Below are positions 11,411-28,287 of a DNA stretch of 64,000 bases, in pieces (the first letter of the stretch is position 1; every line of letters begins with the position of its first letter). The notes below the pieces were generated by a model that had not been told where the DNA came from, did no database searches, and worked only from the letters and a program-made list of their open reading frames with translations. Location of the stretch: positions 1,169,846 through 1,233,845 of the forward strand of contig NZ_CP021378.1 of assembly GCF_002215495.1 (NCBI RefSeq), in the 5' to 3' direction. Both the position numbers and the translations under genes were made by a program. The stretch comes from Porphyrobacter sp. CACIAM 03H1 (GTDB lineage Bacteria > Pseudomonadota > Alphaproteobacteria > Sphingomonadales > Sphingomonadaceae).

Positions 11411-11490
11411 AGAAGCGGGAATTTGGAAAGCCGCGCGCGGGGGACTGGGCCAGAATATCGGGGGCGACACGAGCTTTGAGGGAGGGCTGG

Positions 11491-12399
11491 ATGGCCGGGA
11501 TCGGTCAGGTGCAGCACACGCACACGGGCTACCAGGCGATCGATTGCGTCGCCTATGCCCACGTGCCCGCTGCCCTGTCGCTGGTGACGGCCCCGCGCGA
11601 CATCGTGCTCTACCGCATCGTCGACTACGGCCCCACGCGTACCACCAGCGCCGATCGGCCGGCCGACGATCACGACCTGCTGCTGCTGACCCGCGGATCT
11701 GGCGTGCCGGCCTATGGCAACATGGCCGGGCACCGCTACACCGTCGCCCCCAACCGCGACCTGCGCGCCAGTTTCGTGCCCAACGGGGCAGATTCGCACA
11801 TCGAGTTCGGCTCTTCGGCGAAGAGCATCAACCTCGTCTTTCCCAGAGGCTTCCTCGGCGGGCTGGTCGAGGATCGGGCGCGCAGCCACATCGATCCGCT
11901 GCTGTTCAGCGACAACTCCGCGCTGATCGGCCTGATCAGCCTAATCGAGCTCGAACTCTTCCGGCCCGGCCTCGTCGCCGATCTCGTCGCGGAACAGGCG
12001 ATGCGGAGCATGGCGCTGATCCTGTCGGGTCTGGACCCCAACGGTTTCCTTGCCGAGAGCGAGCGGATCACCATCCCGCCGGTGCGGCTGAAGCGGGTGA
12101 TCGACTTCATCGAGGCGAACCTTGCCGAGCCGCTGACCCTCGAACTGCTGGCCCATGTCGCGGGGCTTTCGGTGTTCCACTTCGCGCGGGTGTTCCACAA
12201 GGCGACGGGCTACAGCCCCTACCGCTATGTCAGCGAACGGCGCCTGCTGCGCGCGCAGCGGTTGCTGATGGCGCATGACATGGCGGTGCAAGACGTCGCG
12301 CTTGCCTGCGGCTTTCCGCGCCACGCCAATTTCAGCGCCGCCTTCGCGCGGGCGCGGGGCATGTCGCCGAGCCGCTATCGCGCCGCCTTCGCGCTCTAG
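11491..12399 (+). CDS. AraC-family transcriptional regulator (3 of 3)
   Basis: 302 residues from ATG 11491, preceded by GGAGGG. The N-terminal region shows a cupin-like pattern (LLLLTRGSG, RASFVPNGADSHIEFG). The C-terminal AraC domain carries RVIDFIEANLAEPLTLEL, AHVAGLSVFHFARVFHK and VALACGFPRHANFSAAFAR, ending MSPSRYR. The linker RVIDFIEANL is shared with the regulator at 7434-8366. It converges on the cytochrome gene: the two stop codons share the bases CTAG at 12396-12399. Likely to regulate a nearby barrel gene or an aromatic or lipid pathway elsewhere; unknown. Confidence 0.9.
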   Translation: MAGIGQVQHTHTGYQAIDCVAYAHVPAALSLVTAPRDIVLYRIVDYGPTRTTSADRPADDHDLLLLTRGSGVPAYGNMAGHRYTVAPNRDLRASFVPNGADSHIEFGSSAKSINLVFPRGFLGGLVEDRARSHIDPLLFSDNSALIGLISLIELELFRPGLVADLVAEQAMRSMALILSGLDPNGFLAESERITIPPVRLKRVIDFIEANLAEPLTLELLAHVAGLSVFHFARVFHKATGYSPYRYVSERRLLRAQRLLMAHDMAVQDVALACGFPRHANFSAAFARARGMSPSRYRAAFAL

Positions 12400-12722
12400 G
12401 ACGCGGGCCGCGCTTCCTGGACGTGGACCATGTAATCGACGATCGCGGGCACCGCCGCCTCGTCGACCGGGGCCTTGTAGAGGGTGCGCATCTTGCCGAC
12501 GATCGACTCCCACTTCTCCCGGCTCACCTTCGGCTGCTGGAGCATGGTCGAGGGCGAGTGGCACGCAGTGCAGTTCTCCAGCACCGCATCGCGCCCCGGG
12601 CCTTCGGGCAGGTCGAGCGGATCGTCGGGCAGGGTGATGCTCGCATCGGCGAAGGCGACCTTCGGCGCGCTGTCGCAGGCGGCGAGGGCGAGGAGCGCAA
12701 GGGCGGCGGCGGCGGCTCTCAT
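12396..12722 (-). CDS. sorB: Lipoprotein c-type cytochrome, sulfite dehydrogenase electron acceptor
   Basis: 108 residues with one haem-binding site C51-T-A-C54-H55 and a likely distal Met78 (GKMRTLY). The N-terminus is a lipoprotein signal with lipobox LAAC (Cys16), which would anchor it in the periplasm. The start overlaps the stop of the molybdenum enzyme gene, so the two are translated together. That pairing is typical of SorAB-type sulfite dehydrogenases, where the cytochrome takes electrons from the molybdenum subunit. It is longer than classic SorB because of the lipoprotein leader. It is the last gene of the overlapping six-gene chain. Confidence 0.85.
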   Translation of the reverse strand: MRAAAAALALLALAACDSAPKVAFADASITLPDDPLDLPEGPGRDAVLENCTACHSPSTMLQQPKVSREKWESIVGKMRTLYKAPVDEAAVPAIVDYMVHVQEARPAS

Positions 12723-13915
12723 TGTGCCCTCAGACTGATGCGTTCGATCACGTTGCGGGCATAGCCCGAGGGGTTCCAGGCAAGCGTATCGGGCTGCACC
12801 GCGCCTTCCGTGTCGGCGGCCCTCGCGCCGATTCCGGTCAGGTCACCTGACGCATTGGGCAAGGTCACGCTCCACCGGCGGAAGGCATAGCGCCCCTCGT
12901 CCGGCCCCAGCGTGCAGGGCACTTCCCAGCCCTTGCCGACCAGATCGACCCGGGCCAGCGCGGCATTGCCGCCGAAGGCGATCCCTTCCAGCACCAGCGG
13001 CTCGCCCTTGGCGATGGTGTCGCCGTCGGCATGGCTGGTGATGAAGGCGCGCGGCGGCATGGTGGTGACGGGGATGGTGGCGAAGTCCTTGTCCGCAGGG
13101 GTCACCGGCTGCGCGGGGAGGCGATAGGATTCGGCGACATAGTAGCTCTCGTCCTCGCCGGTCAGCACCTCGATGGTGGCGAGCATCTTGACCCAGTAGG
13201 TCGAGAACCACCCCGGCACCACGATGCGCAGGGGAAAGCCGTGGAGGATCGGCAGGGGTTCGTCGTTCATCGCCCAGGCGACCAGCACGTCGTCGCGCAT
13301 GGCGATGGCGAGCGGCAGGGACTTGATGAACTGCGGCGCGCCTTCGGTCAGCGGCACGTCGAGCCCGGCGAAGCGCACCCGCTTTGCGCCCTCCGCCACG
13401 CTCGCCCTGGCAAGCACGTCCTTGAGGCGCACGCCGGTCCACTTCGCGCAGGCCATCGCGCCGTTGCCCCATTGGGTGCCGGTGACGCGCGGCTCGGAGA
13501 GGCCCCGGCCGTTGCCCGCGCACTGGTTGACCGCCACGACGGAGACATGCTCGCCCGCCGCCGCGATCTCGTCGAGCGTGAGCGACACCGGCGTTTTCAC
13601 CGCGCCGCCCACCGCGACGCGGTGATCGGCGGCCTTCACGCTGGCGGGCATGTCCCAGTTCCAGCGCACGAAATGGCGGTCGTTGGGGGTGATGACGCCC
13701 TCGCGGAACACTGCCATCGGCGCCTCGAGCAGGGGCGGGCGGATGCGCTGGACGATCATCTCGCCCTTGCCGGGAAACTGCGGGTCGAGCGGGCGCAGGC
13801 CCGGGCCGCCGGGAAGGCCGAGGTCGATCACCTTCTGCGCCAGCAGCGGTGCCGCGAGCGCCGTGGTGCCTGCCCCCGCGATCAGCGCGCGGCGGGTGAG
13901 CCGCTCCCCGCTCAT
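12719..13915 (-). CDS. sorA: Molybdopterin sulfite dehydrogenase, catalytic subunit
   Basis: 398 residues of the sulfite oxidase family; oxidises sulfite to sulfate in the periplasm. The N-terminus has a Tat-like leader (LTRRALIAGAGTTALAAP). The molybdenum-binding domain carries the conserved Cys132 in VNQCAGNGRG and HFVRWNWDMP; the C-terminal Ig-like dimerisation domain (about 280-398) ends before a Ser-Leu-Arg-Ala-Gln tail. Start and stop overlap its neighbours by 4 bases each. In this setting it most likely removes the sulfite that the SsuD/SmoC-type monooxygenase releases from sulfoquinovose. A sulfite role is supported by the cytochrome partner and the YeiH-type exporter in the same operon. 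Confidence 0.88.
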   Translation of the reverse strand: MSGERLTRRALIAGAGTTALAAPLLAQKVIDLGLPGGPGLRPLDPQFPGKGEMIVQRIRPPLLEAPMAVFREGVITPNDRHFVRWNWDMPASVKAADHRVAVGGAVKTPVSLTLDEIAAAGEHVSVVAVNQCAGNGRGLSEPRVTGTQWGNGAMACAKWTGVRLKDVLARASVAEGAKRVRFAGLDVPLTEGAPQFIKSLPLAIAMRDDVLVAWAMNDEPLPILHGFPLRIVVPGWFSTYWVKMLATIEVLTGEDESYYVAESYRLPAQPVTPADKDFATIPVTTMPPRAFITSHADGDTIAKGEPLVLEGIAFGGNAALARVDLVGKGWEVPCTLGPDEGRYAFRRWSVTLPNASGDLTGIGARAADTEGAVQPDTLAWNPSGYARNVIERISLRAQ

Positions 13916-14523
13916 GCCTCGGCCCGCTCCAGCCTTGCGATCAGATCGCCGATCTCCGCCACCGCTAGGTCATGGCCTGCAATCAGATCGCCGATGTCGT
14001 CGATCCGCGCCATCTCGCCGTCGTCGCGCATGATCGAGCAGATCACCGCCGCATCCCCTGCGCCCGCCAGACGGGCGAGGTCGATCGAGGCCTCGCACGC
14101 CGCAGGCCGCGCCAGCACGCCGCCGGCCTGCGCGATCAGCGGGAAGACGTGCCCGGGCGAATGGATGTCCGCGCTGCTCGCCCCCTCGGCGATCGCGACC
14201 TGCACCGTGTGCGCGCGGTCGGCGGCGGAAATGCCGGTGGAAACGCCATGCGCGGCCTCGATCGAGCGGGCGAAGGGCCGCCCGGTCTGGCGCGCGGTGC
14301 CGGGGTTCACGAGGCTGAGGCCGAGCTGTTCGGCACGCTGCGGGGTCACCGCGAGGCAGATCAGGCCCCGGCCATGCGTCGCCATGAAGTTGATCGCATG
14401 CGGGGTGACGTGCCTTGCGGCGATCATCAGGTCGATGTCCCCGCCGCGCAGCCGGTCACCGGCGATGACGACCATGCGCCCCGCCGCAACCGCCGCCAGC
14501 GCCGTGTCGAGCGCCGCGCTCAT
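13912..14523 (-). CDS. RibB-like protein (3,4-dihydroxy-2-butanone 4-phosphate synthase family) with altered acidic loop
   Basis: 203 residues across the full RibB fold. Conserved parts are THGRGLICLAVT, HGVSTGISAADR, SPGHVFPLIAQAGGVLAR (His125) and E144 in CEASIDL, and MRDDGEMAR. In E. coli RibB the flexible acidic loop is RENEGD. Here the aligned bases give R26-G27-G28-D29-I30-D31, so the first Glu, a metal and catalytic position in known enzymes, is Gly and the second is Asp. RibB normally makes the four-carbon precursor of riboflavin from ribulose 5-phosphate. It sits next to an FMN reductase and in one overlapping operon with it, which would suit flavin supply for an FMN-dependent monooxygenase. 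Whether it still has that activity is open. Confidence 0.8.
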   Translation of the reverse strand: MSAALDTALAAVAAGRMVVIAGDRLRGGDIDLMIAARHVTPHAINFMATHGRGLICLAVTPQRAEQLGLSLVNPGTARQTGRPFARSIEAAHGVSTGISAADRAHTVQVAIAEGASSADIHSPGHVFPLIAQAGGVLARPAACEASIDLARLAGAGDAAVICSIMRDDGEMARIDDIGDLIAGHDLAVAEIGDLIARLERAEA

Positions 14524-15095
14524 CACGCAAGGTCCCTTCCGGCCGCGAAGCTCCTGGCGCCGAGCACCACCTGCCGGCCGACCAGTTCGAGCTGGCCGCG
14601 CGCGCGCTCGTCGAGGCATTCGCCGTCGGGCGAGAACAGGCCCTGATAGGTGCGGATCGTCGCCCCCATCGGCGTGGGCCAGCCGCGCAGGGCATGGGTG
14701 ATCGCGCGCATGGTGAGCAGGGTCGACATCGACGCCTGATCCCCGAAGGCGGTGGCGATGAGGCCCACCGCACGGCCATCGAGATAGGGCCGCTCGTCGC
14801 GGGCGAGATCCTCGAGGTAATCGAGCGCGTTCTTGACCACGCCCGAGATCGTGCCGTGATAGCCGGGCGCGGCGACGAGAAGCCCGTCGGCCTGCCGCAC
14901 CGCCTCGACGAGTTCCGCGCCCATCTCCGCCGTGTGGCCGGGGCCACGATAATGCGGCAGGCCGGCGCAATACTCGCCGCCGAAAACCGTCACCTCGGCT
15001 CCCTCGCCCGCGGCGATGGCCGCTGCGAGGCGCAGCGCCTGCTCGGTCGAGGAGCCGGGATTGACCGTGCCGCCGAGGGCTACAATTCGGGTCAT
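14523..15095 (-). CDS. NAD(P)H-dependent FMN reductase (SsuE-like flavodoxin fold)
   Basis: 190 residues. It has the phosphate-binding loop GGTVNPGSSTEQ and the family motif APGYHGTISGVVKNALDYL at about 76-95. Such enzymes make free reduced FMN for two-component monooxygenases. An SsuD/SmoC-type monooxygenase is encoded 10 kb away in the same locus (25615-26700), and this is the natural candidate for its reductase partner, the role called SsuE or SmoA elsewhere. The start overlaps the GlpD stop (ATGA), and its own stop overlaps the RibB-like start. The pairing is inference from family and position. Confidence 0.85.
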   Translation of the reverse strand: MTRIVALGGTVNPGSSTEQALRLAAAIAAGEGAEVTVFGGEYCAGLPHYRGPGHTAEMGAELVEAVRQADGLLVAAPGYHGTISGVVKNALDYLEDLARDERPYLDGRAVGLIATAFGDQASMSTLLTMRAITHALRGWPTPMGATIRTYQGLFSPDGECLDERARGQLELVGRQVVLGARSFAAGRDLA

Positions 15096-16582
15096 GCTTG
15101 GCGTGTCCTTTCGGTGATGTAGGCGGCGAGGCGCGCGGTCTGTTCGGGGGTGAAGCGCAGGCCGAGCTTGGTCCGGCGCCAGAGCACGTCTTCGCAGGTG
15201 CGCGCCCATTCGTGCGCCATCAGGTGATCGACCTCGGCAGCGGTGAGGCCGTGGCCGAAATCCTCGCCGCAATCGGCGCGGGTGGCGGCATCGCCGAGGA
15301 AGGCGGCGGCGCGGGTGCCGTAGAGGCGGATCAGGCGCTGCGCCTCGGCTTGCGAGAGGAAGGGGTAGCGCCGGCGCAGGTCGGCCATCTTCGCGCCGGC
15401 CTCGGTCATGCCGAAGTCGCCGCCGGGGAGCGGGGCGCTGCCGGTCCAGTCGCCGCCCTTGAGCGCGGGCAGGAAGGGCGCGAGCCGCTCCACCGCCTCG
15501 GCGGCGAGGTGGCGATAGGTGGTGATCTTGCCGCCGAACACCGAGAGCAGGGCGGGAGTGCCATCGTCCCCGCCATCGACTTCGAAGCGGTAGCCGCGCG
15601 TCGCCGCCTCGGGCTTGCCCGATCCGTCATCGACCAGCGGGCGCACGCCCGAGTAGGTCCACACGACGTCATCGGGGGTGACGGGGGTGCGGAAATACTC
15701 CGAGGCGCCCTCGCACAGATAGGCGATCTCCTCGGGGCTGGCCTTCACCTCGTCGAGCCCCGCCTTGTGATCGACATCGGTGGTGCCGATCAGGGTGAAG
15801 TCGCTCTCGTAGGGGATGGCGAAGAAGATCCGCCCGTCGGGCAGCTGGAAGAAATAGGCGTAATCGTGGTCGAACAGCTTCCGCACCACGATGTGCGAGC
15901 CGCGCACGAGGCGCATCTTCTGGGTGGTCGGCTCGCCAGCGCGGCCCAGCAGGTCGAGCACGCGCGGGCCTGCCGCATTGACGACGGCGCGGGCATGGAA
16001 GACCTCGCCCCCGGCCTCGATCCGCCATGCCTCACCCTCGCGGGCGAGCTCGGTGACCTCGCAGCGGGTCCGCACCGTCGCGCCGCGGTCGGCCGCGTCG
16101 CGGGCGTTGAGGATGACGAGGCGGGCATCGTCCACCCAGCCGTCGGAATAGGCGAAGGCGCGGGTGTATTCGCCCTTGAGCGGCGCGCCGGCGGGGTGGC
16201 GGGCGAGATTGACGTTCTGGGTCGCGGGAAGCAGCTTCCTGCCGCCCAGATGGTCGTAGAGGAACAGCCCCATCCGCACCAGCCAGCGCGGGCGCAGGCC
16301 GGGGCGGTGGGGGAGGATGAAGCGCAGCGGCCAGATGATGTGCGGGGCGATGCCCCACAGCACCTCGCGCTCGCTCAGGGCCTCGCGCACCAGGGCGAAT
16401 TCGTAATGCTCGAGATAGCGCAGGCCGCCGTGGATCAGCTTGGTGGAGTTGGACGAGGTGCCCTCGGCGAGGTCCCCGCGCTCCAGCAGCAGCACCTTCG
16501 CCCCGCGCCCGGCGGCATCGCGCGCGATCCCGGCGCCGTTGACGCCGCCGCCGATCACGGCAAGGTCGAACACCTGTTCCAT
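15092..16582 (-). CDS. glpD: FAD-dependent glycerol-3-phosphate dehydrogenase
   Basis: 496 residues, normal length for aerobic GlpD. N-terminal FAD-binding motif GGGVNGAGIARDAAGRGAK, then GTSSNSTKLIHGGLRYLE, the classic GlpD signature. Further conserved blocks are RKLFDHDYAYFFQLPDGR, YSGVRPLVDDG, SVFGGKITTYR and a C-terminal DAO-C helical domain. It oxidises glycerol 3-phosphate to dihydroxyacetone phosphate at the inner face of the membrane, passing electrons to quinone. No glycerol kinase is seen in the window. Its place in this operon fits use of the glycerol freed from sulfoquinovosyl-glycerol; that link is inference. Confidence 0.93.
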   Translation of the reverse strand: MEQVFDLAVIGGGVNGAGIARDAAGRGAKVLLLERGDLAEGTSSNSTKLIHGGLRYLEHYEFALVREALSEREVLWGIAPHIIWPLRFILPHRPGLRPRWLVRMGLFLYDHLGGRKLLPATQNVNLARHPAGAPLKGEYTRAFAYSDGWVDDARLVILNARDAADRGATVRTRCEVTELAREGEAWRIEAGGEVFHARAVVNAAGPRVLDLLGRAGEPTTQKMRLVRGSHIVVRKLFDHDYAYFFQLPDGRIFFAIPYESDFTLIGTTDVDHKAGLDEVKASPEEIAYLCEGASEYFRTPVTPDDVVWTYSGVRPLVDDGSGKPEAATRGYRFEVDGGDDGTPALLSVFGGKITTYRHLAAEAVERLAPFLPALKGGDWTGSAPLPGGDFGMTEAGAKMADLRRRYPFLSQAEAQRLIRLYGTRAAAFLGDAATRADCGEDFGHGLTAAEVDHLMAHEWARTCEDVLWRRTKLGLRFTPEQTARLAAYITERTRQA

Positions 16583-17676
16583 CAGATCGCCCACCGCGCA
16601 AAGGCGAGCGCCGCCGCGAGGCTGGCGACGGTCGCCGCCAGCACCGGCATCACCGCTCGCCAGCCGAGGCCGAGCAGCAGTTCGGTCCGCGTGCGCATGG
16701 CGGTGGCGGTGACCGCGAGCAGCAGCAGCGTCTTGGAGGCGGTGAGCGCCCATCCGGCGACATCGGCGGGCAGGGCGACCAGCGAATTGACCGCGACCAT
16801 CGCGAGGAAGGCGAGGATGAAGCCCGGCAGCATCGGCACGCGGGCCTTGCCCACGCCTGCGGGCAAGGGCTGGACGCGGGCGATCCACAGGGCGGCGAGG
16901 GTCACCAGCGGGGCGAGCAGGGCGACGCGGGTGAGCTTCACCACGGTCGCCTGCGCGCCCGCCGAGTCCGAGACGGCAAAGCCCGCGCCGATCGCCTGCG
17001 CCACGTCATGGATCGCCGCGCCCGTCAGGAACCCGGCCTGCGCATCGCTGAAGGCGAGCATCCGGGCGAGCGGCGGATAGGTGACGAGCGCAATGGCCGA
17101 TGCGGCGGCAAGGATCACCAGCGTCAGCGTGAACTGCGCCTGATCGACCCGCTCGCGCCCGATCACGCCATAGAGCGCCAGCGCGGCCGAGGCCCCGCAG
17201 ATCGCGGTCGCGCCCCCGCCGAGCAGGCCGATCGCCGGGCTCTGCCCCGTCGCCCGCGCGGCGGCGAGCGCGGCGAGGAGCGCGGCCAGCATCACCAGCG
17301 CAAGGCCGGCGAAGGGGACGAGGCCCATCGCCATCACCTGCATCGCCGTGACCTGGAAGCCGAGCAGCACGATCCCGGCCCTGAGGCCATGGCGCGAGAC
17401 GGCATCGAGACCCTCGTGGGTGCGCGGGTCTCCGGCGGCGAAGCCCATGGCGAGGCCGACGAGCAGGCCGGCAAGGATCACCGGCACGCCGTAGTTCTGG
17501 CTGAGCCACGCTGCCGCGGCACCGGCGATGGCGCAGATCGCGAGACCGGGGACGAAGCGCGACAGCGGCTTGCGCTCGGCCCGGGCAGCGGCTGCGGCGG
17601 CGCTGTCGGCGAGCACCATCTCGCCGAACAGGTCGCCGGCGAAGGTCTCGATGTCGGGGCGTGGCCCTCGCGTCAT
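16582..17676 (-). CDS. YeiH-family putative sulfate/sulfite exporter
   Basis: 364-residue membrane protein with about ten hydrophobic segments after a 40-residue cytoplasmic start. Family signatures: NYGVPVILAGLLVGLAMG, GLRAGIVLLGFQVTAMQV, GGGATAICGASAALA and GAAIHDVAQAIGAGF, all typical of the YeiH (UPF0324, Cons_hypoth698) family. Members are annotated as sulfate exporters, but direct proof is scarce. First gene of the six-gene chain: its stop overlaps the glpD start by one base. Placed with a sulfite dehydrogenase, a role in disposing of sulfite or sulfate is the simplest reading. Confidence 0.82.
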   Translation of the reverse strand: MTRGPRPDIETFAGDLFGEMVLADSAAAAAARAERKPLSRFVPGLAICAIAGAAAAWLSQNYGVPVILAGLLVGLAMGFAAGDPRTHEGLDAVSRHGLRAGIVLLGFQVTAMQVMAMGLVPFAGLALVMLAALLAALAAARATGQSPAIGLLGGGATAICGASAALALYGVIGRERVDQAQFTLTLVILAAASAIALVTYPPLARMLAFSDAQAGFLTGAAIHDVAQAIGAGFAVSDSAGAQATVVKLTRVALLAPLVTLAALWIARVQPLPAGVGKARVPMLPGFILAFLAMVAVNSLVALPADVAGWALTASKTLLLLAVTATAMRTRTELLLGLGWRAVMPVLAATVASLAAALAFARWAI

Positions 17677-17790
17677 GCCGGTCCGGTCCTGCCCATCGCC
17701 TTTGTGAAATCCCTCGGGTTGGCGCTTCTGTCTTGCGGTGTCATATCGTAGCCCGCATGGTCCGCCATTGCAACCGCGCCCGCGGCCGCC

Positions 17791-19071
17791 TCAGGCGAAA
17801 TCGGCGCGGGCTTCCTCTTCCTCCGGACGGCGGATCACGGGGATCAGCAGCCGGAACCACGCCAGCGCGATCAGGTAGGAGGCGGCGGCGAAGACGAACA
17901 GCGGGACATAGCCGAGGCCGGCATCGAGCACCCGGCCCGTCACCAGGGAGATCGCCACCCCGCCCATGTTGCCCATGAAGGCGCCGAAGGCCGTCACCCG
18001 TCCGACTTTGGCCTGCGGCACCACGTCGGTGATGGTCGAGAAGATCGACAGGGAGAAGCCCTGGTGCCCGGCCATCACCAGGCCGATCATCACCGCCACC
18101 GGCCAGAAGCTGTCGAGCTGCAGGGCCAGCGGCAGCGGGGCGACGATCAGGGCCGACACCAGCATCACGCCCTTGCGCACCCGGTCGGGGCTGACCCCGC
18201 GCTCCAGCAGCCTCGTCGAAGCCCAGCCCGCCAGCAAGGCGCCGAGCCCGGAACCCGCGAAGGCAATCGCGAGCGGCACCGCCAGTTCGAGCGTCGAGAG
18301 GCCGAATTCCTTCCGGTAGTAATCGGCGAGCCAGAAATTGATGAACCACCAGGTCATGTCCGAAATGGCCTTGGCGACGACGATCCCCCAGGTCTGGCGG
18401 TTCGCGAGGATCGCGCCGTAGCGGTCCGTTGCCGGGGCGTCGGCGGGGCGTTGCTCTGCCGTCGCGGGGTCGTTGCGAAGTTGTTGTACGCCGTGGGCGA
18501 GCCATATCCACGCCAGGAGCGACAGAAATCCGCCGATCCCGCCCGCCACCAGCGCCCCGCGCCAGCCGACCTCGGTCGCCAGCAGCGGGATCAGGAACGG
18601 CATGGCGATCGTCCCCGCGCCCGCCAGCATGGTGGCAAAGCCGAAGGCGAAGCTGCGCGTGTCGGGCGGGAACAGCGCGGCGACGGTCTTGATCGTCAGC
18701 GGGGTCTGCACCGCCTCGGTCACCCCGAGGCCGACCCTCGCCGCGACCACCTGCCAGGTCGTCATCGCCCAGCCGTGGGCCATCGCCGCAAGGCTCCATG
18801 CCGACGCGCCGACCTGCATCGAGCGGTTGACCCCCAGCCGGTCGACCAGCCACCCCGTGAACAGAAAGGCGAAGGCGGCGGAGAACTGCGTCACCGCGGC
18901 GAGATCGCCGAAGTCACTGTCGGTCCAGCCGAAATCGGCCATCATGTCGGGCTTGAGGATGGCGATGATCGGGCGGTCCATCGCGTTGAACACCCCCGCG
19001 ATGCACAGCACCGTGAACAGCGACCAGCGCAAGCGGGGGGCGATAGGGGGGTGGGCGTGGTCGGCGGCCAT
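17791..19071 (-). CDS. MFS transporter, candidate sulfoquinovose (or its glycoside) importer
   Basis: 426 residues from ATG 19071, which has AGGA 6 bases upstream. Twelve-helix major facilitator with MDRPIIAILKPDM in helix 1, the loop motif GWLVDRLGVNRSM and a long central cytoplasmic loop. It looks most like the anion:cation symporter branch (ExuT-type hexuronate carriers), which fits an acidic sugar. It lies 108 bp after the TonB receptor and 115 bp before the YeiH gene on the same strand. I infer it moves the sulfo-sugar across the inner membrane, replacing the ABC importer of the Agrobacterium pathway. Confidence 0.8.
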   Translation of the reverse strand: MAADHAHPPIAPRLRWSLFTVLCIAGVFNAMDRPIIAILKPDMMADFGWTDSDFGDLAAVTQFSAAFAFLFTGWLVDRLGVNRSMQVGASAWSLAAMAHGWAMTTWQVVAARVGLGVTEAVQTPLTIKTVAALFPPDTRSFAFGFATMLAGAGTIAMPFLIPLLATEVGWRGALVAGGIGGFLSLLAWIWLAHGVQQLRNDPATAEQRPADAPATDRYGAILANRQTWGIVVAKAISDMTWWFINFWLADYYRKEFGLSTLELAVPLAIAFAGSGLGALLAGWASTRLLERGVSPDRVRKGVMLVSALIVAPLPLALQLDSFWPVAVMIGLVMAGHQGFSLSIFSTITDVVPQAKVGRVTAFGAFMGNMGGVAISLVTGRVLDAGLGYVPLFVFAAASYLIALAWFRLLIPVIRRPEEEEARADFA

Positions 19072-19128
19072 CACGGGTTCCTAGGCTTCCTCGGCAGGAC
19101 AGGGCAAGGGCGGCGCCCCAGACAAAGC

Positions 19129-19154
19129 GGGCCGCCGGATCGCTCCGACGGCCC
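19129..19154 (-). terminator. Hairpin between the TonB receptor and the MFS gene
   Basis: On the minus strand GGGCCGTCGGA-GCGA-TCCGGCGGCCC forms an 11-bp stem with one G-T pair and a 4-base loop, followed by GCTTTG. The T-run is weak, so it may be a partial terminator that lowers expression of the MFS gene relative to the receptor, rather than a full stop. Confidence 0.5.
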
Positions 19155-19181
19155 CCTGTTGCATCACGTTTCCGTTGCGGC

Positions 19182-21497
19182 TCAGCGCGTCCGGATGCGC
19201 AGGCTCACGCCGACATAGCGGTCCGCGTCGCGCGGGATCTGCAGGCGCCGCCCGTTCTCCACGTTGAGCAGCACATAGCCGACATCGGCGATGTTGCGGG
19301 CGTGGAAGGTCAGGCGATACTTGTCCTCGGGGTCCGACACGCCGACCGAGGCGTTCCAGATGCCGTAGGAGTCGATCGGGCCGGCATTGCCGAGGTCCGA
19401 GAACTGGCTGCTGGTGTGGCGGAAATCGGTGTTGAGGTAGAGCCGCGCCGCATCGCCGAGGTCGGTGGTGTAGTCGCCGCCGAGGGTCCAGACGAACTCC
19501 GGCGCGAGCGGCAGGCGGGTGCCGTTGCGCGCGTCGGGCGCGTTGGTCAGCGGGTTGGGGTTGAACTCCTTCACGCGGGCATCGGCATAGGCCGCGCTCG
19601 CCCGCAGGTTCAGCCCGTCGATCGGCGCGACGAGCAGGTCGGCCTCGAAGCCTTCCGACTTCACCGTGCCCGCGTTGGTCAGGTTCGAGACCGTGGCACC
19701 GTTGACGACGATGAAGTTGTTGGCCTGGAACCCGTCATAGGTGACGGTGAAGGCCGCCACATTGAGCTGCACGCGGTTGTCGAGGAACTGCGTCTTCGCC
19801 CCGATTTCGAAGCTGTCGGACAGCTCCTCGTCGATCGGCCGCGCGTTGTTGGGCGCGGTGTGGTTGAAGAAGACGTTGAAGGCCGGGCCCTTGTAGCCGC
19901 GGGTGTACGAACCGTAGAGCATGATGTCCTCGGTCGGTTCGAACTGGATCACCGCACGACCCGACAGGTTGCCGTTGGTGGTCGAGCCGCGGCTGGTGTT
20001 GGTGCCGTTGCCGCCGCTGGCGACGAGGCCGCCGGCGGGGTTCGCCACCACGCCCGGGCCGGTCGCCGGCAGGCCGGTCGTGGCATTGGCGCCCGGCGCG
20101 CGGGTGTGGGTGAACTCGAGGTCATCCCAGGTGTAGCGCAGGCCGCCGGTCAGCGAGAGCTGCTCGGTGAAGCGGTAGGTCGCCTGGCTGAAGATCGCGT
20201 AGTTCACCGAACGCACGTCGCTGCGCGAGGTGGCGAAGGGGAAGAGCGTGTTCACCCGGTCGTTGAGGTTGCAGGGCCGCGCCCCGGTGCGCGGATCGAC
20301 CGGCAGGGTCGAGCTGGCGCAGGTGACGTTGCGGCGGGTGAAGTCCTGCGAGTTGTCCGACTGCCAGGCAAAGACGCCGGCCTGGTAGAAGAACGGCTTG
20401 GTCTGGTCGGAGGCGATGCGGATTTCGGCCGAGACCTGCTCGGTCTTGACCACGCCGTCGTCGTGCAGCTCGCCCACGCCCACCAGCGGACGCGGCAGGA
20501 AGTCGCCCTCGCGCAGCTCGCGGTTGAACCAGTTGCGATAGCCCAGCACCACGCTCAGCGTGTGGGTGTCGCTGATCTCGAAATCGCCCGAGCCGGTGAG
20601 GCTCCACTGCTCGTCCTCGGTCGAGGTGACGAGGTTGTGGTTGATGAAGCGCTGCTTCTCGCCGATGGCGACGCCGCCGGGCAGGTTCAGTTCGGCATCC
20701 TGCTGTGCGCCGCGGCTGGCGCCGGTCACGTCGGCGCAGCAATCGTCGTCGGCCTTGTAGTAGTCGGCGATCAGGCGGACGCGGTTGCCGCCGTCGTCAT
20801 AGTCCATGATGCCGCGCACGCCGTAGCGCTCGTAGCCGTTGACCTTGCGGTTGGTGCCGCCGTTGATGTTGGTGATGTTGCCGTCGAAGCTGCCGTAGAA
20901 GCCGGTGAGGCGGGCGGTCAGGTTCTCGGCGATCGGGCCCGACAGGGCAGCGCGAAGGCGGTATTCCTCGCCCTCGAACCAGTCGGCATTGACCTCGGCC
21001 TGGAAGTCGTCGGTGCCGCCTTCCGAGACGATGTTGACAAGGCCCGCCGAGGCGTTGCGGCCGAACAGGGTGCCCTGCGGCCCGCGCAGCACTTCGAGCC
21101 GCTGGATGTCGACGAGGTCCATGAAGGCCTGGCCCGAACGGCTCAGCACCACGCCGTCGACAACGGTGGACACGCTGGGCTCGGCGGCGACCGAGAAGCT
21201 GATGGTGCCCACGCCGCGCATCACGATCGCGCTGTTGGCGCTGGTGGTGCCCTTGCGGAAGGTCACCGAGGGCACGACGGTCGAGATGTTCTCGAGGCTG
21301 AAGACGACCGCCTGATCCAGCCGGTCGCCCGAAACCGCGGTGATCGCGATCGGCACGTCCTGGACGTTTTCCTCGACCTTCTGCGCGGTTACGACGATTT
21401 CCTCGACCTGCGCGAAGGCCGGGGCGGTGGTGACGAGTGCGAGCGTGCTGGCCGAGAGGGCAAGCGTCTTGAGCGCGATACGGGTGGTGGCGGGCAT
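19182..21497 (-). CDS. TonB-dependent receptor of the sulfoquinovose locus
   Basis: 771 residues, full length. Signal peptide ends AFA/QVEE near residue 29; TonB box region EEIVVTAQKVEENVQD; plug domain with MRGVG and VLRGPQGTLFGRNASAGLVN; then the 22-strand barrel, ending RIRTR, unusual in not closing with F or W. The start ATG 21497 has GGGAGA upstream. It diverges from the sulfoquinovosidase gene across 165 bp that also hold a LacI-type palindrome, so both are probably controlled together. Likely substrate is sulfoquinovose or sulfoquinovosyl-glycerol, inferred only from position. Confidence 0.9.
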   Translation of the reverse strand: MPATTRIALKTLALSASTLALVTTAPAFAQVEEIVVTAQKVEENVQDVPIAITAVSGDRLDQAVVFSLENISTVVPSVTFRKGTTSANSAIVMRGVGTISFSVAAEPSVSTVVDGVVLSRSGQAFMDLVDIQRLEVLRGPQGTLFGRNASAGLVNIVSEGGTDDFQAEVNADWFEGEEYRLRAALSGPIAENLTARLTGFYGSFDGNITNINGGTNRKVNGYERYGVRGIMDYDDGGNRVRLIADYYKADDDCCADVTGASRGAQQDAELNLPGGVAIGEKQRFINHNLVTSTEDEQWSLTGSGDFEISDTHTLSVVLGYRNWFNRELREGDFLPRPLVGVGELHDDGVVKTEQVSAEIRIASDQTKPFFYQAGVFAWQSDNSQDFTRRNVTCASSTLPVDPRTGARPCNLNDRVNTLFPFATSRSDVRSVNYAIFSQATYRFTEQLSLTGGLRYTWDDLEFTHTRAPGANATTGLPATGPGVVANPAGGLVASGGNGTNTSRGSTTNGNLSGRAVIQFEPTEDIMLYGSYTRGYKGPAFNVFFNHTAPNNARPIDEELSDSFEIGAKTQFLDNRVQLNVAAFTVTYDGFQANNFIVVNGATVSNLTNAGTVKSEGFEADLLVAPIDGLNLRASAAYADARVKEFNPNPLTNAPDARNGTRLPLAPEFVWTLGGDYTTDLGDAARLYLNTDFRHTSSQFSDLGNAGPIDSYGIWNASVGVSDPEDKYRLTFHARNIADVGYVLLNVENGRRLQIPRDADRYVGVSLRIRTR

Positions 21498-21641
21498 TCG
21501 GTTTTCTCCCCTGCAAACTGATCGATTCTTTCGGGCGGCGATGCAAAGACCCTTGCCCGTGCGGTCGATCTTTCGGCGGTCGGGTTGCGCTTTCTGTCCT
21601 GATCTGTCAAGCGGTGTCAGAACCGGCCGAGGGACAGGCCG

Positions 21642-21653
21642 GCATACGTATGC
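21642..21653. promoter_or_regulatory. LacI-type operator palindrome upstream of sulfoquinovosidase
   Basis: GCATACGTATGC is a perfect 12-bp palindrome with the central CG that LacI-family operators have. It ends 9 bases before the sulfoquinovosidase ATG and is inside the 165-bp region shared with the divergent TonB receptor. The LacI gene of the same operon is the obvious candidate to bind it. Only one copy is seen here. Confidence 0.55.
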
Positions 21654-21662
21654 AGGGTGGGA

Positions 21663-23645
21663 ATGGTGCAGTTGGTGCCTTCGGACGGCGGATTGGGCTT
21701 GCGGCTCGCGGGCCGCACGGTCCTGCGCCATGCGCCGGATTGTCTTGCCATTTCCGTGGCTTCTGGCAATCCGACCGTGACGATGGTGCGCGGTAATTTC
21801 CGCCTGTCGGACGCCAGTGTGGCAGCATCGCCACTCATTCGCAGCAATCGCGCGGATGCGGACGGCTGGCTGCTCGAAAGCGCCGATTCCGCCGCGCGGG
21901 TGGCGGTGCGGCTGGATCGCGCGCGGCTTCACCTGAAGGCGTTGTCGGGCCATGACCGCATGACGCTCGATTTCGCGCTTGCCGAGGGCGATGTGCTGTG
22001 GGGCGGGGGCGAGCAGATGAGCCACCTCGTCCTCAATGGCCGCAACTTCCCGATCTGGACCAGCGAGCCCGGCGTGGGCCGCGAACCCGGCACACCGCTT
22101 ACCGACCAGGCGAGCGCCGACGGGAGTTTCGCGGGCGGAGATTACTGGACCACCAACTACCCCGAACCAACGGTGCTGTGTTCGGGCGGCTGGGCGCTGA
22201 GCCTCGCCAACGCGGAATATGTCGAACTTGATGCGCGCGAGCCCGGTAAGCTCAGGGTCCATGTATGGTCGGGCGAGGTCGCCATAGACCTGTTCGAGGG
22301 CGCGCCCGCCGATCTCGTCCGGCAACTGGGTGAAAGGTTCGGCCCGCGCCACGCCTTGCCCGACTGGGTGCTGGGCGGCGCGGTGGTCGGCCTCAAGCAG
22401 GGCGAGGCCTCCTTCGAGCGGCTCGAGGCCCTGATCGATGCGGGCGCGGCGGTATCGGGCCTGTGGTGCGAGGACTGGGTCGGCATCCGCGAGACCAGCT
22501 TCGGCCGCCGCCTGTTCTGGGACTGGCAGTGGAACCCCGCACGCTACCCTGACCTCCCCGCCCGCATCGCCGCCCTGAAGGCACGCGGCATCCGCTTCCT
22601 CGGCTATGTGAACCCCTATCTGGCGGTCGACGGCCCCCTCTACCCCGAAGCGGCAGCGAGGGGCCTCCTCGCGCTGCACCTCGGCCGGGACGAACCCTAC
22701 CTCGTCGACTTCGGCGAGTTTGACGCGGGCGTGGTCGATTTCACCAACCCCGCCGCCGCCGACTGGTTCGCCGAGGAGGTGATCGGTAAACGGATGCTCG
22801 ATTTCGGGCTCGACGGGTGGATGGCGGATTTCGGCGAGTATCTTCCCACCGACCTCAGGCTCCACGCCGGCGACCCGATGCAGGAGCACAACCGCTGGCC
22901 GGTGCGCTGGGCCGAGGTCAATGCCCGCGCCGTCGCCTCTCGTGGGCGGACCGGGGACGTGCTTTGGTTCATGCGCGCCGGCCACACCGGGGTGCAGGCG
23001 CATTGCCCGCTGCTGTGGGCGGGCGACCAGTCGGTCGACTTCAGCCGCCATGACGGCATCGGCACAGTCGTCACCGCCGCGCTCTCGTCCGGCCTCGTCG
23101 GCAATGCCTTCAGCCACTCCGACGTCGGCGGCTACACCAGCCTGTTCGGCAATGTGCGGACCGAGGATCTGATCCTGCGCTGGTACGAGCTGGGCGCCTT
23201 CAGCCCTGTTTTCCGCACCCACGAGGGCAACCGTCCGGACGACAATCTCCAGATCGACTCCACCCCCGCACTGGTCGAGGGCTTCGTCCGCTGGAGCCGG
23301 GTACATGAGGCGCTGGCCCCCTACGTCCGCCACCTCGTCTCCGAGGCGCAGGTGACGGGCCTTCCCGCCCAGCGCGCGCTGTTCCTGCACTACCCCGATG
23401 ATCGCGAGACCTTCACGATCCAGGACCAGTATCTCTATGGTGCGGACATTATGGTGGCACCGGTGATCGAAGCGGGGGCGGCGATGCGCAAGGTCTATCT
23501 GCCGGAGGGCGATTGGCGGCACCTGTGGAGCGGCGAGGGCTTCGCTCCCGGCTGGCACGAGGTGGCCGCGCCGATCGGACAGCCGCCGGTCTTCTACCGC
23601 GCAGGCAGCGCCTTCGCGCCGCTGTTTGAGGAGCTCGCCGCATGA
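21663..23645 (+). CDS. smoI: GH31 sulfoquinovosidase
   Basis: 660 residues; frees sulfoquinovose from sulfoquinovosyl-glycerol and related glycosides. ATG 21663 is chosen over GTG 21657. Compared with E. coli YihQ: catalytic nucleophile D389 (GWMADFGEYLP), acid/base D455 (WAGDQSVDF), and sulfonate-binding R283 and W286 (FGRRLFWDW) and Y491 (SDVGGYTSL) are all present. K245 and E270 (WCEDW) replace the two Gln of YihQ, which is the KERW form known from Agrobacterium-type enzymes. No signal peptide, so it acts in the cytoplasm. The stop overlaps the LacI start (ATGA). This residue set is what separates sulfoquinovosidases from ordinary alpha-glucosidases. Confidence 0.9.
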   Translation: MVQLVPSDGGLGLRLAGRTVLRHAPDCLAISVASGNPTVTMVRGNFRLSDASVAASPLIRSNRADADGWLLESADSAARVAVRLDRARLHLKALSGHDRMTLDFALAEGDVLWGGGEQMSHLVLNGRNFPIWTSEPGVGREPGTPLTDQASADGSFAGGDYWTTNYPEPTVLCSGGWALSLANAEYVELDAREPGKLRVHVWSGEVAIDLFEGAPADLVRQLGERFGPRHALPDWVLGGAVVGLKQGEASFERLEALIDAGAAVSGLWCEDWVGIRETSFGRRLFWDWQWNPARYPDLPARIAALKARGIRFLGYVNPYLAVDGPLYPEAAARGLLALHLGRDEPYLVDFGEFDAGVVDFTNPAAADWFAEEVIGKRMLDFGLDGWMADFGEYLPTDLRLHAGDPMQEHNRWPVRWAEVNARAVASRGRTGDVLWFMRAGHTGVQAHCPLLWAGDQSVDFSRHDGIGTVVTAALSSGLVGNAFSHSDVGGYTSLFGNVRTEDLILRWYELGAFSPVFRTHEGNRPDDNLQIDSTPALVEGFVRWSRVHEALAPYVRHLVSEAQVTGLPAQRALFLHYPDDRETFTIQDQYLYGADIMVAPVIEAGAAMRKVYLPEGDWRHLWSGEGFAPGWHEVAAPIGQPPVFYRAGSAFAPLFEELAA

Positions 23646-24646
23646 GCCGCGCCAACATCAAGGATGTCGCCGCCCGCGCGGGCGTGGCGGTCAAGACGGT
23701 GAGCCGCGTGCTCAACGGCCATCCCTATGTCAGCGCCGAACTCAAGGCGCGGGTCGAGCAGGCGATGGCCGAACTCGACTACCGCCCCTCGGTCGCGGCG
23801 CGCATCCTCTCGGGCGCGAAGTCGGGGCAGGTCGCGCTGATCTACGACAACCACAGCCCCTACTACATGTTCCAGATCCAGAAGGGCTGCTGGGATGTGT
23901 GCCACGAGGGCGGCATCCGCCTCCTCGCCCAACCGGTCGACGTCGCCGATCCGCGCGTCGGCGATCAGGTGCGCGGGCTGGTGAGCGAGACCCATGTCGA
24001 CGGCATCATCCTCTCCTCGCCCGTCACTGACTGCGATCCGGTACTGCGCGCGCTCGAGACGATGGACGTGCCCTTTGTGCGCATCTCGCCGGGGACCAAC
24101 CACGCGCTGACGTCCAGCGTGTTCATGGACGACGCGCAGGCCGCCGACGACATGACCACCCACCTAATCAACGCCGGGCACCGCCGCATCGGCTTCATCA
24201 AGGGCCACGCCAACCACATGGCCTCCGACGATCGGCTGTTCGGCTACCGCCGCGCCCTCGACCGCGTCGGCATTCCCTTCGAGCCGAGCCTCGTGGTCGA
24301 CGGGGAGTTCGACTTCGACAGCGGCGTGGCCGGCGCGCGGGCCCTGCTCGACCAGCCCGGCCGCCCCACCGCGATCTTCGCCTCGAACGACGACATGGCG
24401 GCGGGCGTGCTCGCCGTGGCGCATGACCGGGGCATCAAGGTTCCGGACGAGCTGTCGGTCGCGGGCTTCGACGATACCACGCTGGCGCGCACCGTCTGGC
24501 CGCCGCTCACCACCATTCGCCAGCCGATGGCGGACCTTGCCCGCACGGCAACGCAGATCCTGATCGCGGGCGGGGACCTCACCCACAAGCGCCTGCCCCA
24601 CGAACTCGTCGAGCGCGCCTCGGTCGCGCCCCCAAAGAGGAACTAA
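23642..24646 (+). CDS. LacI-family regulator of the sulfoquinovose genes
   Basis: 334 residues. N-terminal LacI helix-turn-helix IKDVAARAGVAVKTVSRVLN with hinge helix SVAARILSGAKSG, followed by a periplasmic-binding-protein-like effector domain (about 60-330) with IFASNDDMAAGV and SVAGFDDTTLARTVWPPLTT. It lies between sulfoquinovosidase and the aldo-keto reductase with a 4-base overlap upstream and a 2-base gap downstream, so it is co-transcribed with the enzymes it probably represses. The likely operator is the palindrome at 21642-21653; the inducer would be sulfoquinovose or its glycoside (inference). Confidence 0.88.
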   Translation: MSRANIKDVAARAGVAVKTVSRVLNGHPYVSAELKARVEQAMAELDYRPSVAARILSGAKSGQVALIYDNHSPYYMFQIQKGCWDVCHEGGIRLLAQPVDVADPRVGDQVRGLVSETHVDGIILSSPVTDCDPVLRALETMDVPFVRISPGTNHALTSSVFMDDAQAADDMTTHLINAGHRRIGFIKGHANHMASDDRLFGYRRALDRVGIPFEPSLVVDGEFDFDSGVAGARALLDQPGRPTAIFASNDDMAAGVLAVAHDRGIKVPDELSVAGFDDTTLARTVWPPLTTIRQPMADLARTATQILIAGGDLTHKRLPHELVERASVAPPKRN

Positions 24647-24648
24647 CC

Positions 24649-25563
24649 ATGAGTGAACTGCCCCTGCCGCCCGCGACCCGCCGCCTCGGCCCGAGCGATA
24701 TCGAGGTTTCGCCCATCGCCTGGGGAATGTGGCGCCTCGCGGAGAACGGCCGCACCGCTGCCGATGCCGCCAGGCTGGTGCACGCGGCGCTCGACGCCGG
24801 GATCACCTTCCTCGACACCGCCGACATCTACGGCTTCGACGGGCAGGGCGGCTTCGGCGATGCCGAGGCGCTGCTCGGCGAGGTGCTGGCGGCCGATCCT
24901 TCCCTGAGGGACCGCATGGTGCTCGCCACCAAGGGCGGCATCCTCCCGCCGCTGCCCTACGACCAGAGCCCGGACTATCTGAGGAAAGCGATCGACGATT
25001 CCCTGCGCCGCCTTCAGGTGGACAGCGTCGACCTGTGGCAGATCCACCGCCCGGACATCCTCGCCCACCCGCAGGAGGTCGCCCGCGTGCTCGACGATGC
25101 GGTGGCATCGGGCAAGGTCAGGACGCTCGGCGTATCCAACTTCACCATGAGCCAGATCGCGGCGCTCCAGCACTTCCTGGGGCAAAAGCTGGTCTCGACC
25201 CAGCCCGAGATCAGCCCGCTGCGCATCACCTGCTTCGAGAATGGCGAACTGGATCAGGCGATGCTGCTGGGCCTGACCCCGCTGGCATGGTCGCCGCTCG
25301 GCGGCGGCAGGCTCGCCGCGCCGGAAAGCGAACGCGACAAGGCCGTGGCCGCCGCGCTCGACATCGTGGCCGAGGCCCAGGGGGTCTCGCGTACGGTCGC
25401 CGCCTACAGCTGGCTGATGGCGCACCCGGCGGGCATCGTGCCCATCATCGGCTCGCAGAATGCCGAGCGGATTGCCGAGGGTGCCGAGGCGCTGCGGGTG
25501 CGCTGGACGCGCGCCGAGTGGTACGCGGTGCTGGTCGCGGCGCGGGGCGTGCCGCTGCCTTGA
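24649..25563 (+). CDS. smoB: Aldo-keto reductase, candidate 6-oxo-glucose reductase
   Basis: 304 residues, a TIM-barrel aldo-keto reductase with the full catalytic tetrad: D56 and Y61 (FLDTADIYGFDG), K95 (ATKGG) and H133 (WQIHRPD). The NADP-binding end carries VSNFTMSQIA and IIGSQNAERIAEG. In the oxygenolytic sulfoquinovose pathway this family member (SmoB) reduces 6-oxo-glucose, the product of the monooxygenase, to glucose. It follows the LacI gene after 2 bases, with GAGGA before the ATG. The pathway role rests on the sulfoquinovosidase and the SsuD/SmoC-type neighbour. Confidence 0.85.
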   Translation: MSELPLPPATRRLGPSDIEVSPIAWGMWRLAENGRTAADAARLVHAALDAGITFLDTADIYGFDGQGGFGDAEALLGEVLAADPSLRDRMVLATKGGILPPLPYDQSPDYLRKAIDDSLRRLQVDSVDLWQIHRPDILAHPQEVARVLDDAVASGKVRTLGVSNFTMSQIAALQHFLGQKLVSTQPEISPLRITCFENGELDQAMLLGLTPLAWSPLGGGRLAAPESERDKAVAAALDIVAEAQGVSRTVAAYSWLMAHPAGIVPIIGSQNAERIAEGAEALRVRWTRAEWYAVLVAARGVPLP

Positions 25564-25614
25564 GTCAAAAGCTTCGGGGGCACGGATCGAAAGTTTGGAC
25601 GAGGAACGGATAGA

Positions 25615-26700
25615 ATGACTCAACAATGCGAAATCGCGTGGTTTTCCGCGCTGTGTGACGACGACTACGAGTTCCTCGGCGTGCCCGACAAATACCTCCA
25701 GTCGAGCTGGGAGCATTGCCGCAACATCGTGCTGCGTGCCGAGGAGGGCGGGTTCGACAACATCCTGCTGCCCTCGGGCTACCAGCTGGGCGTCGACACC
25801 ACGATCTTCGCCGCCGCCGTCGCCACGCAGGTCAAGCGCATCAAGCTGCTGTGGGCGACCCGCATGGGCGAGGACTGGCCGCCGCAGCTCGCGCGCCGCA
25901 TCGCCACGCTCGACCGTATCCTCGGCCCGAACGCCGCCGGCACCGGCGGGCGCCTCAACGTCAACATCATCTCCTCCGATATGCCGGGCGAAAAGATCGA
26001 GAGCGGCCCGCGCTACCGCCGCGGCACCGAGATCATGAAGATCGTCCGCACCCTGCTCAACGGCGAGCATCTCGACTTCGACGGCGAGTTCTACAAGCTC
26101 AAGCTCGATCCGCCGCGGATCTCCACGCTCTCGGGCAAGTGCCCGCCGTTCTATTTCGGCGGCCTTTCCCACGAGGCGCGCGAATGCGCGGCCGAGGCGG
26201 CGGACGTCTACCTGATGTGGCCCGATACGATGGACAATGTCCGCGCCAACATCGCCGACCTCAAGGAACGCGCGGCGAAGTATGGCCGCACCCTCAAGTT
26301 CGGCTACCGCGTCCATGTCATCGTGCGCGAAACCGAGGAGGAAGCGCGCCACTACGCCGACCGGCTTCTGTCGAAGCTGGACGATGAGGCGGGCCGCGCG
26401 ATCCGCGAGAAGAGCCTCGATGCCAAGAACTACGGCGTCCAGCGCCAGCAGGAACTGCGCGGGGCCGCCGATGGCGACGGTTTCGTCGAGGAGAACCTCT
26501 GGACCGGCATCGGCCGGGCGCGCTCGGGCTGCGGGGCGGCGATCGTCGGCACGCCCGACCAGGTGCTCGCCAAGCTGCGCGCCTATCAGGCCGAAGGGAT
26601 CGAGGCCTTCATCCTCTCGGGCTATCCGCACATGCAGGAGGCCGACCTCTTCGCCCGCCATGTCCTGCCGCACATCCAGCACGGACCGCTCGAGATGTGA
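25615..26700 (+). CDS. smoC: FMNH2-dependent sulfoquinovose monooxygenase (SsuD/SmoC family)
   Basis: 361 residues of the luciferase-like alkanesulfonate monooxygenase family. Regions shared with SsuD include TLDRILGPNA, PFYFGG, FGYRVHVIVRETEEEA with H234, NLWTGIGRARSG with R303, and FILSGYPHMQEA with Y337; the SsuD cysteine near residue 54 is not conserved. It would use reduced FMN and oxygen to cleave the C-S bond, giving sulfite and an aldehyde. It lies 51 bases after the aldo-keto reductase with GAGGAAC before the ATG and ends the plus-strand operon. Reduced flavin most likely comes from the FMN reductase at 14523-15095. Sulfoquinovose as substrate is inferred from the linked sulfoquinovosidase. 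Confidence 0.87.
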   Translation: MTQQCEIAWFSALCDDDYEFLGVPDKYLQSSWEHCRNIVLRAEEGGFDNILLPSGYQLGVDTTIFAAAVATQVKRIKLLWATRMGEDWPPQLARRIATLDRILGPNAAGTGGRLNVNIISSDMPGEKIESGPRYRRGTEIMKIVRTLLNGEHLDFDGEFYKLKLDPPRISTLSGKCPPFYFGGLSHEARECAAEAADVYLMWPDTMDNVRANIADLKERAAKYGRTLKFGYRVHVIVRETEEEARHYADRLLSKLDDEAGRAIREKSLDAKNYGVQRQQELRGAADGDGFVEENLWTGIGRARSGCGAAIVGTPDQVLAKLRAYQAEGIEAFILSGYPHMQEADLFARHVLPHIQHGPLEM

Positions 26701-28262: not shown

Positions 28263-28287
28263 GCACCTCGAGGACGGGAGAGAATTC

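Follow-up and report, generated by a model that had tools for sequence, protein, structure and literature searches.

The oxygenolytic route of sulfoquinovose (SQ) degradation, the sulfo-SMO or sulfo-ASMO pathway, is described in review form from Agrobacterium tumefaciens and Novosphingobium aromaticivorans (PMC9594981), and the portions of PMC13372026 and PMC12890257 that deal with it concur on the pathway and on Novosphingobium. In A. tumefaciens, a glycoside hydrolase family 31 (GH31) sulfoquinovosidase, a monooxygenase, an aldo-keto reductase, and a flavin reductase serve complete use of SQ carbon, and sulfoquinovosyl-glycerol (SQGro) is taken up by an ATP-binding cassette (ABC) transporter. 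The N. aromaticivorans cluster is, by the review's description, without SsuE; another flavin reductase is presumed, its identity being left open (PMC9594981). The accounts of the pathway consulted here leave the route of substrate uptake in sphingomonads unstated.

We analyzed positions 12396 to 26700 of a 64,000-nucleotide stretch (the window) of Porphyrobacter sp. CACIAM 03H1, whose genome is one 3.5-Mb contig (NZ_CP021378.1). An earlier note had read these positions as an oxygenolytic SQ locus with uptake by a TonB receptor and a major facilitator superfamily (MFS) carrier in place of the ABC system. That reading is supported by matches to solved structures, by linkage in 40 mapped relatives, and by a common operator-like site. 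We consider it very likely that the locus is a LacI-controlled regulon for the complete use of SQGro by oxygenolytic desulfonation.

The locus has the same kinds of core enzymes as that of A. tumefaciens but differs from it in having a TonB receptor and an MFS carrier instead of the ABC transporter and in including GlpD, RibB, YeiH, and SorAB in the putative regulon. N. aromaticivorans is alike in being of the same order and in having the same two core reactions (PMC9594981, PMC12890257), whereas the window's operon, compared with the review's description of that cluster, contains an FMN reductase of another subfamily than SsuE. Because the pathway had been reported from N. aromaticivorans (PMC9594981), the locus is less new than the earlier note held: the chemistry has been described before, and the unusual feature is how it is packaged, together with importers, a cofactor supply, a means of glycerol disposal, and a control switch of its own. 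Literature searches combining sulfoquinovose with TonB, sulfite dehydrogenase, glycerol-3-phosphate dehydrogenase, Novosphingobium, or Sphingomonas, and sulfoquinovosyl with glycerol kinase, gave, among the papers listed, no title or abstract opening that describes this design, and an earlier mention is possible. We give an even chance to a broader proposal for sphingomonads: a self-contained SQGro mineralization regulon whose outer-membrane gate for the sulfosugar is a TonB receptor, whose operon-borne non-SsuE FMN reductase and dedicated RibB fill the flavin gap of the Novosphingobium-type pathway, and in which, in many species, placement of the genome's sole GlpD (in some also its sole GlpK) ties glycerol to sulfolipid use. 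The locus offers candidates for the receptor and carrier, the reductase, RibB, the glycerol branch, and the operator where accounts of the sphingomonad pathway have gaps.

Gene map and core enzymes

Families were assigned with Pfam and NCBIfam (SmoC in NCBIfam only, LacI in Pfam only); the scans used a longer FMN reductase frame, from 15209, and a GH31 frame from 21783. Every gene named in the earlier note proved to be an intact open frame with a fitting family match, in the arrangement described there. The plus strand carries, in order, the GH31 sulfoquinovosidase (21663 to 23645), a LacI-family regulator (23642 to 24646; PF00356, PF13377), a SmoB-type aldo-keto reductase (24649 to 25563; PF00248), and a SmoC-type FMNH2-dependent monooxygenase (25615 to 26700). 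Facing them on the minus strand are the TonB-dependent receptor (19182 to 21497; PF00593, PF07715), the MFS carrier (17791 to 19074; PF07690), and an array of six genes in which adjoining members overlap by 1 or 4 bases: a YeiH-family exporter (16582 to 17676), the glycerol-3-phosphate dehydrogenase GlpD (15092 to 16582), an FMN_red-family NAD(P)H:FMN reductase (14523 to 15095), the 3,4-dihydroxy-2-butanone-4-phosphate synthase RibB (13912 to 14523), a SorA-like molybdenum sulfite dehydrogenase (12719 to 13915), and a SorB-like cytochrome c (12396 to 12722), which shares 4 bases with SorA. The earlier note had begun the locus at 12396, the stop end of SorB, without naming SorB, GlpD, or RibB as members of the array.

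The core enzymes were compared with solved structures. For GH31, which also scored 784 bits against NF007746, the best matches were 5ohy (761 bits, E value of 8.4e-228) and 5ohs (759 bits), followed by 8r56 (637), 6pnr (605), and 5aed (571); the 5ohy and 5ohs chains bear the name "yihQ," and 7ofx is identical in sequence. SmoC matched 7olf (370 bits, E value of 1.4e-109) and 7oh2 (359 bits) well ahead of 7jv3 (207 bits) and 1nqk/1m41 (183 bits), and it scored below the SsuD equivalog cutoff (TIGR03565, 250.1 versus 518.2 bits). The aldo-keto reductase matched 7bbz (194 bits, E value of 2.5e-56) and 7bby (191 bits) ahead of 1og6 (151 bits). We take 5ohs, 7olf/7oh2, and 7bbz to be the sulfoquinovosidase, SmoC, and SmoB, respectively, of Agrobacterium/Rhizobium, the depositors' names being more general.

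Residues R283, W286, and Y491 of GH31, which the earlier note had singled out, are conserved in the alignments with 5ohy, 5ohs, and 8r56; the numbers hold for the ATG at 21663 and become 285, 288, and 493 from the GTG at 21657, two codons upstream. The Asp of WMADFGEYLP and that of AGDQSVDF are identical in 5ohy and 8r56, while 5ohs has Asn at the second. We assume that the Arg, Trp, and Tyr bind the sulfonate and that the Asp pair is catalytic. In SmoC, W202, R232, H234, R301, R303, Y337, and H339, all presumably important for function, are identical in the 7olf alignment. The SmoB and SmoC homologues are adjacent (24649 to 25563 and 25615 to 26700), and PMC13372026 recognizes a sulfo-SMO locus by SmoB and SmoC matches inside a 10-gene window, as is the case here.

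Apart from the GH31 gene of the locus, the source genome has no GH31 match. Judged by eye, the protein has no signal peptide, so intact SQGro would need to cross both membranes. A glucokinase gene (PF02685; 52482 to 53438), the only match in the genome, lies 26 kb from SmoC and would take the glucose product onward.

From these assignments, a route can be proposed. SQGro, presumably the remainder of sulfolipid delipidation from cyanobacteria, algae, or plants, would enter the periplasm via the TonB receptor and the cytoplasm via the MFS carrier and would then be cleaved by cytoplasmic GH31 to SQ and glycerol. The FMN reductase would give FMNH2 to SmoC, which with O2 would convert SQ to 6-oxo-glucose and sulfite, and RibB would increase the flavin supply. 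The aldo-keto reductase would then form glucose from 6-oxo-glucose, and glucokinase would lead it into central metabolism. Glycerol would be processed by GlpK, encoded elsewhere in the genome (one copy, at C1:3300475), and then by the GlpD of the operon. YeiH, if it acts as an exporter of sulfite (or sulfate), would move sulfite to the periplasm, where SorAB would oxidize it to sulfate and pass the electrons to cytochrome c.

Recurrence of the locus and its modules

Of 397 genomes drawn from the family, 105, belonging to 37 of 96 genera, had SmoC at an E value of 1e-60; among the matches listed, its nearest named relatives were mostly from Erythrobacter and Porphyrobacter, with 96 to 98% identity. 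A contig scan confirmed 165 relatives, of which 80 were used as loci. Separately, 40 genomes were hand-picked, with long contigs favored, from the 104 matching genomes other than the source, and stretches of ~36 kb were mapped. Gene presence was scored by identity and coverage limits set after the gene maps had been inspected; a 34% GlpD match (genome G253) and a 33% TonB match (G094) fell below these limits and were not counted. The 40 mapped loci contained the aldo-keto reductase in 39 cases, TonB in 37, MFS in 34, LacI in 30, GH31 in 29, YeiH in 22, GlpD in 18, the FMN reductase and RibB in 17 each, a GH188 enzyme in 11, SorA in 9, and GlpK in 8.

Each mapped locus had one kind of sulfoquinovosidase, GH31 (29 loci) or GH188 (11 loci), and none had both or neither. 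The GH188 call is based on the match of one representative to 8qc3/8qc2, which are SqgA structures, and the complementary spread of the two families is already described (PMC10755693). In 3 of the 40 (G380, G253, and G140), the GH31 gene either lies at a distance of 8 to 11 kb from SmoC or adjoins it in inverted orientation. GlpD, the FMN reductase, and RibB lie upstream of SmoC and inverted in the window's genus and behind SmoC on the same strand in other genera, so their association has survived at least one rearrangement. The grouping of these genes goes beyond chance, as it is seen again in other genera despite changes in gene order.

Linkage in 37 of the 40 mapped loci, together with the shared site described below, leads us to propose the TonB receptor as an importer of SQ or SQGro, and the earlier note's description of uptake by TonB and MFS in place of an ABC system is a fair one. 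The best NCBIfam match of the MFS carrier, below its cutoff, was a galactonate transporter subfamily. Both carriers were well covered in 68 of the 80 loci, where we sorted TonB receptors into those at least 60% and those 35 to 60% identical to the window's and MFS carriers by limits of 57 and 35%. All four combinations occurred (27, 19, 14, and 6 loci), and in 2 more loci the MFS match was only weak. The remaining TonB receptors of the mapped regions were 23 to 33% identical, which makes it most probable that the second TonB type is a specific relative, and we read the mixing as an exchange of carriers with the same presumed cargo.

Loci outside the family show further variation in carriers. 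The cluster of Ruegeria sp. TM1040 resembles the window's in its luciferase-like (LLM) monooxygenase, aldo-keto reductase, Gfo/Idh/MocA gene, and, further along, putative sulfate exporter; unlike the window's, it has a TRAP carrier, a GntR regulator, and a "flavin reductase family protein," and no TonB receptor is annotated in it. Carrier exchange thus seems general in the sulfo-SMO pathway. A plasmid locus of Rhizobium sp. WSM4643 has a 71.6% identical SmoC and an adjoining LacI regulator but differs in that its neighborhood includes genes for an ABC carrier; the 21 kb listed contain neither an aldo-keto reductase nor a sulfoquinovosidase, which makes the comparison of carriers a weak one. 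In a quick tree, which lacked two rows and had an implausibly long Ruegeria branch, the Rhizobium SmoC fell among sphingomonad SmoC proteins, a position that suggests transfer of SmoC between orders.

The 17 mapped loci with the FMN reductase (PF03358) are the same 17 that have RibB (PF00926; TIGR00506 above its cutoff), and both genes are absent from the other 23. RibB is a second genome copy, the other lying at C1:2139772-2140347. The chains matched by a profile of 12 FMN reductase homologues were azoreductases, FMN reductases, and, with weaker scores, SsuE; the best of five structure models had a mean pLDDT of 90 and the others 73 to 78. We propose this reductase as the partner of SmoC. In lux operons, too, a flavin monooxygenase of the LLM superfamily has riboflavin genes adjoining; the reaction is different, and the likeness is one of analogy only. 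A 450-amino-acid FAD/NAD(P)-binding protein (PF13454) is encoded near SmoC in three loci without the FMN reductase (L142:15631-16983, G072, and G019) and is perhaps an alternative flavin supplier.

Sulfite oxidation built into the operon, as the earlier note had it, is real here; among the mapped relatives, SorA is found in only 9 of 40. SorA (PF00174, PF03404) has, by eye, a twin-arginine start, and its closest solved relative is the SorAB structure 2blf (E value of 7.9e-84), with a Cys of which C132 in VNQCAGN, the molybdenum-ligand Cys, aligns. SorB begins like a lipoprotein, contains a CTACH motif, and is proposed as the candidate electron acceptor of SorA; a small frame with CxxCH, of one of two families, lies beside SorA in all nine SorA-bearing mapped loci.

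GlpD (NF009906, 737 bits) is the only copy above the cutoff in the source genome, two other matches (25 and 22 bits) being far below. The same is true of the locus GlpD in 15 of 19 genomes, the window's included; G078, G128, G122, and G075 have a second copy. Near SmoC in 8 of the 40 mapped genomes is a GlpK gene, which at an E value of 1e-100 is the only one in 7 of the 8 (G168 has two). With GlpD in the operon, and GlpK encoded close to SmoC in some relatives, SQGro is a likelier natural substrate than free SQ.

A shared operator-like site

Two copies of a 15-base operator-like site, TGACACCGCnnGACA, are located in the locus, both on the minus strand: TGACACCGCAAGACA before YeiH (17729 to 17743) and TGACACCGCTTGACA in the divergent promoter between TonB and GH31 (21605 to 21619), where it overlaps a TTGACA hexamer. 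In the whole genome, only these two match exactly. That count is circular because the pattern was taken from these two sites, but the comparisons with relatives and with a reversed control pattern are not. We examined the 68 of the 80 loci in which TonB and GH31 were well covered and at most 700 bases apart and the 24 of the 80 with a YeiH more than 75% identical to the window's. The site was present within one mismatch in all 68 divergent promoters and before all 24 YeiH genes. Over the 80 loci, there were 132 one-mismatch matches versus 2 for the reversed pattern. Among the mapped genomes, with the site counted anywhere in the fetched stretch, it occurred within one mismatch in 25 of the 30 with LacI and in none of the 10 without. 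The LacI regulator is therewith a putative partner of the site, TGACACCG, at which it would act. A 12-base palindrome before GH31, GCATACGTATGC, was rejected as an operator, as it was not conserved among 24 aligned promoters (the window's own and those of 23 loci, out of the 80, whose TonB and GH31 had good coverage and identities of 76% or more). The 15-base site could be used for finding further loci.

Alternative readings and neighboring genes

A number of observations weigh against an SQGro regulon as proposed here. GlpD, the FMN reductase, RibB, and SorA are missing from 22, 23, 23, and 31 of the 40 mapped loci, respectively, and are therefore not essential to the pathway. In a 41-row SmoC tree, the number of changes per module is only 3 to 8, which means that few independent events underlie the co-occurrences: the FMN reductase and RibB agree in four of four pairs (P value of 0.125), the FMN reductase and GlpD are not clearly associated (agreement in about 2, opposition in 0.5, and no difference in 1.5), and of three independent pairs for LacI and the site, one or two are in agreement and none is opposed. 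Under NCBIfam equivalog or subfamily cutoffs, SorA (NF052245, 412.5 versus 600 bits), YeiH (TIGR00698, 80.9 versus 232.6 bits; Pfam PF03601 above threshold with 153 bits), and the FMN reductase (SsuE and MsuE families; TIGR03567, 26.7 versus 164.05 bits) all fall short and are to be taken as relatives, not certified members; several locus GlpK proteins are slightly below the TIGR01311 cutoff. No FMN riboswitch or other Rfam RNA was found at the gathering threshold within the window. As for the site, two further one-mismatch matches lie elsewhere in the genome (the reversed control had none), the four two-mismatch matches in the window are within chance (4 or more were obtained in 13 of 100 shuffles), five LacI-bearing mapped genomes have no site within one mismatch, the position of the site relative to the genes was not placed in G204, and TTGACA within the divergent site may be kept as a promoter element.

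Some of these points would fit the same pathway acting on free SQ, with GlpD, RibB, and SorAB in the operon for general use. GlpD is absent from 22 and RibB from 23 of the mapped loci, GlpK lies outside the locus in the source genome, and the single-copy GlpD must serve ordinary glycerol use too. Against this, all 40 loci have a sulfoquinovosidase-type gene, which would be superfluous for free SQ, GlpD and GlpK are both near SmoC in 8, GlpD appears in more than one gene order, and the unit with the sole GlpD is preceded by the site common to the importer genes; we regard use of free SQ as unlikely. It is very improbable that two unrelated loci, a sulfo-SMO operon and a YeiH-to-SorB operon, merely adjoin. 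The latter does have its own 114-base gap and its own site, but the same site, matched exactly nowhere else in the genome, stands before both units and also lies ahead of YeiH in all 24 close relatives, and in other genera GlpD, the FMN reductase, and RibB are found behind SmoC on the other strand.

General scavenging of alkanesulfonates or other sulfonated sugars, with SmoC acting on simple sulfonates, would agree with the membership of SmoC in the SsuD superfamily (250 bits with TIGR03565), with the PDB names of its best matches ("methanesulfonate sulfonatase" and "alkanesulfonate monooxygenase"), and with a PhyH-family dioxygenase gene in 4 of the 40 relatives' stretches. The TIGR03565 score is far from the cutoff of 518.2, however, 7olf and 7oh2 score ~150 to 160 bits above the next chain, and the constant partners of SmoC, a sulfoquinovosidase and a SmoB-type reductase, are needless for simple sulfonates, which leaves this reading scarcely any weight.

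Neighboring genes were considered as further members. An AraC gene (11476 to 12399) was rejected because no match to it was listed for the 40 mapped loci, and no tRNA was found within the window. A pair of acyl-CoA dehydrogenase genes (27066 to 29418), which directly follows SmoC in many Erythrobacter and Porphyrobacter relatives as well, was rejected because it lies beside SmoC mostly in close relatives and has its own intergenic region; the gap before it holds an inverted repeat, GTTTACA...TGTAAAC, suggesting another regulator. The PhyH-family dioxygenase was considered as a candidate SqoD; the solved structures that it matches are general ones, at weak scores (the best being SnoK; E value of 1.2e-11). 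On a plasmid of Novosphingobium sp. EMRT-2 (L164, 2819 to 13086), a variant locus has a LysR gene, no annotated LacI, a gene of the phytanoyl-CoA dioxygenase family, and a long-chain fatty-acid CoA ligase gene that adjoins one for an alpha-glucosidase; this variant might use whole sulfolipid.

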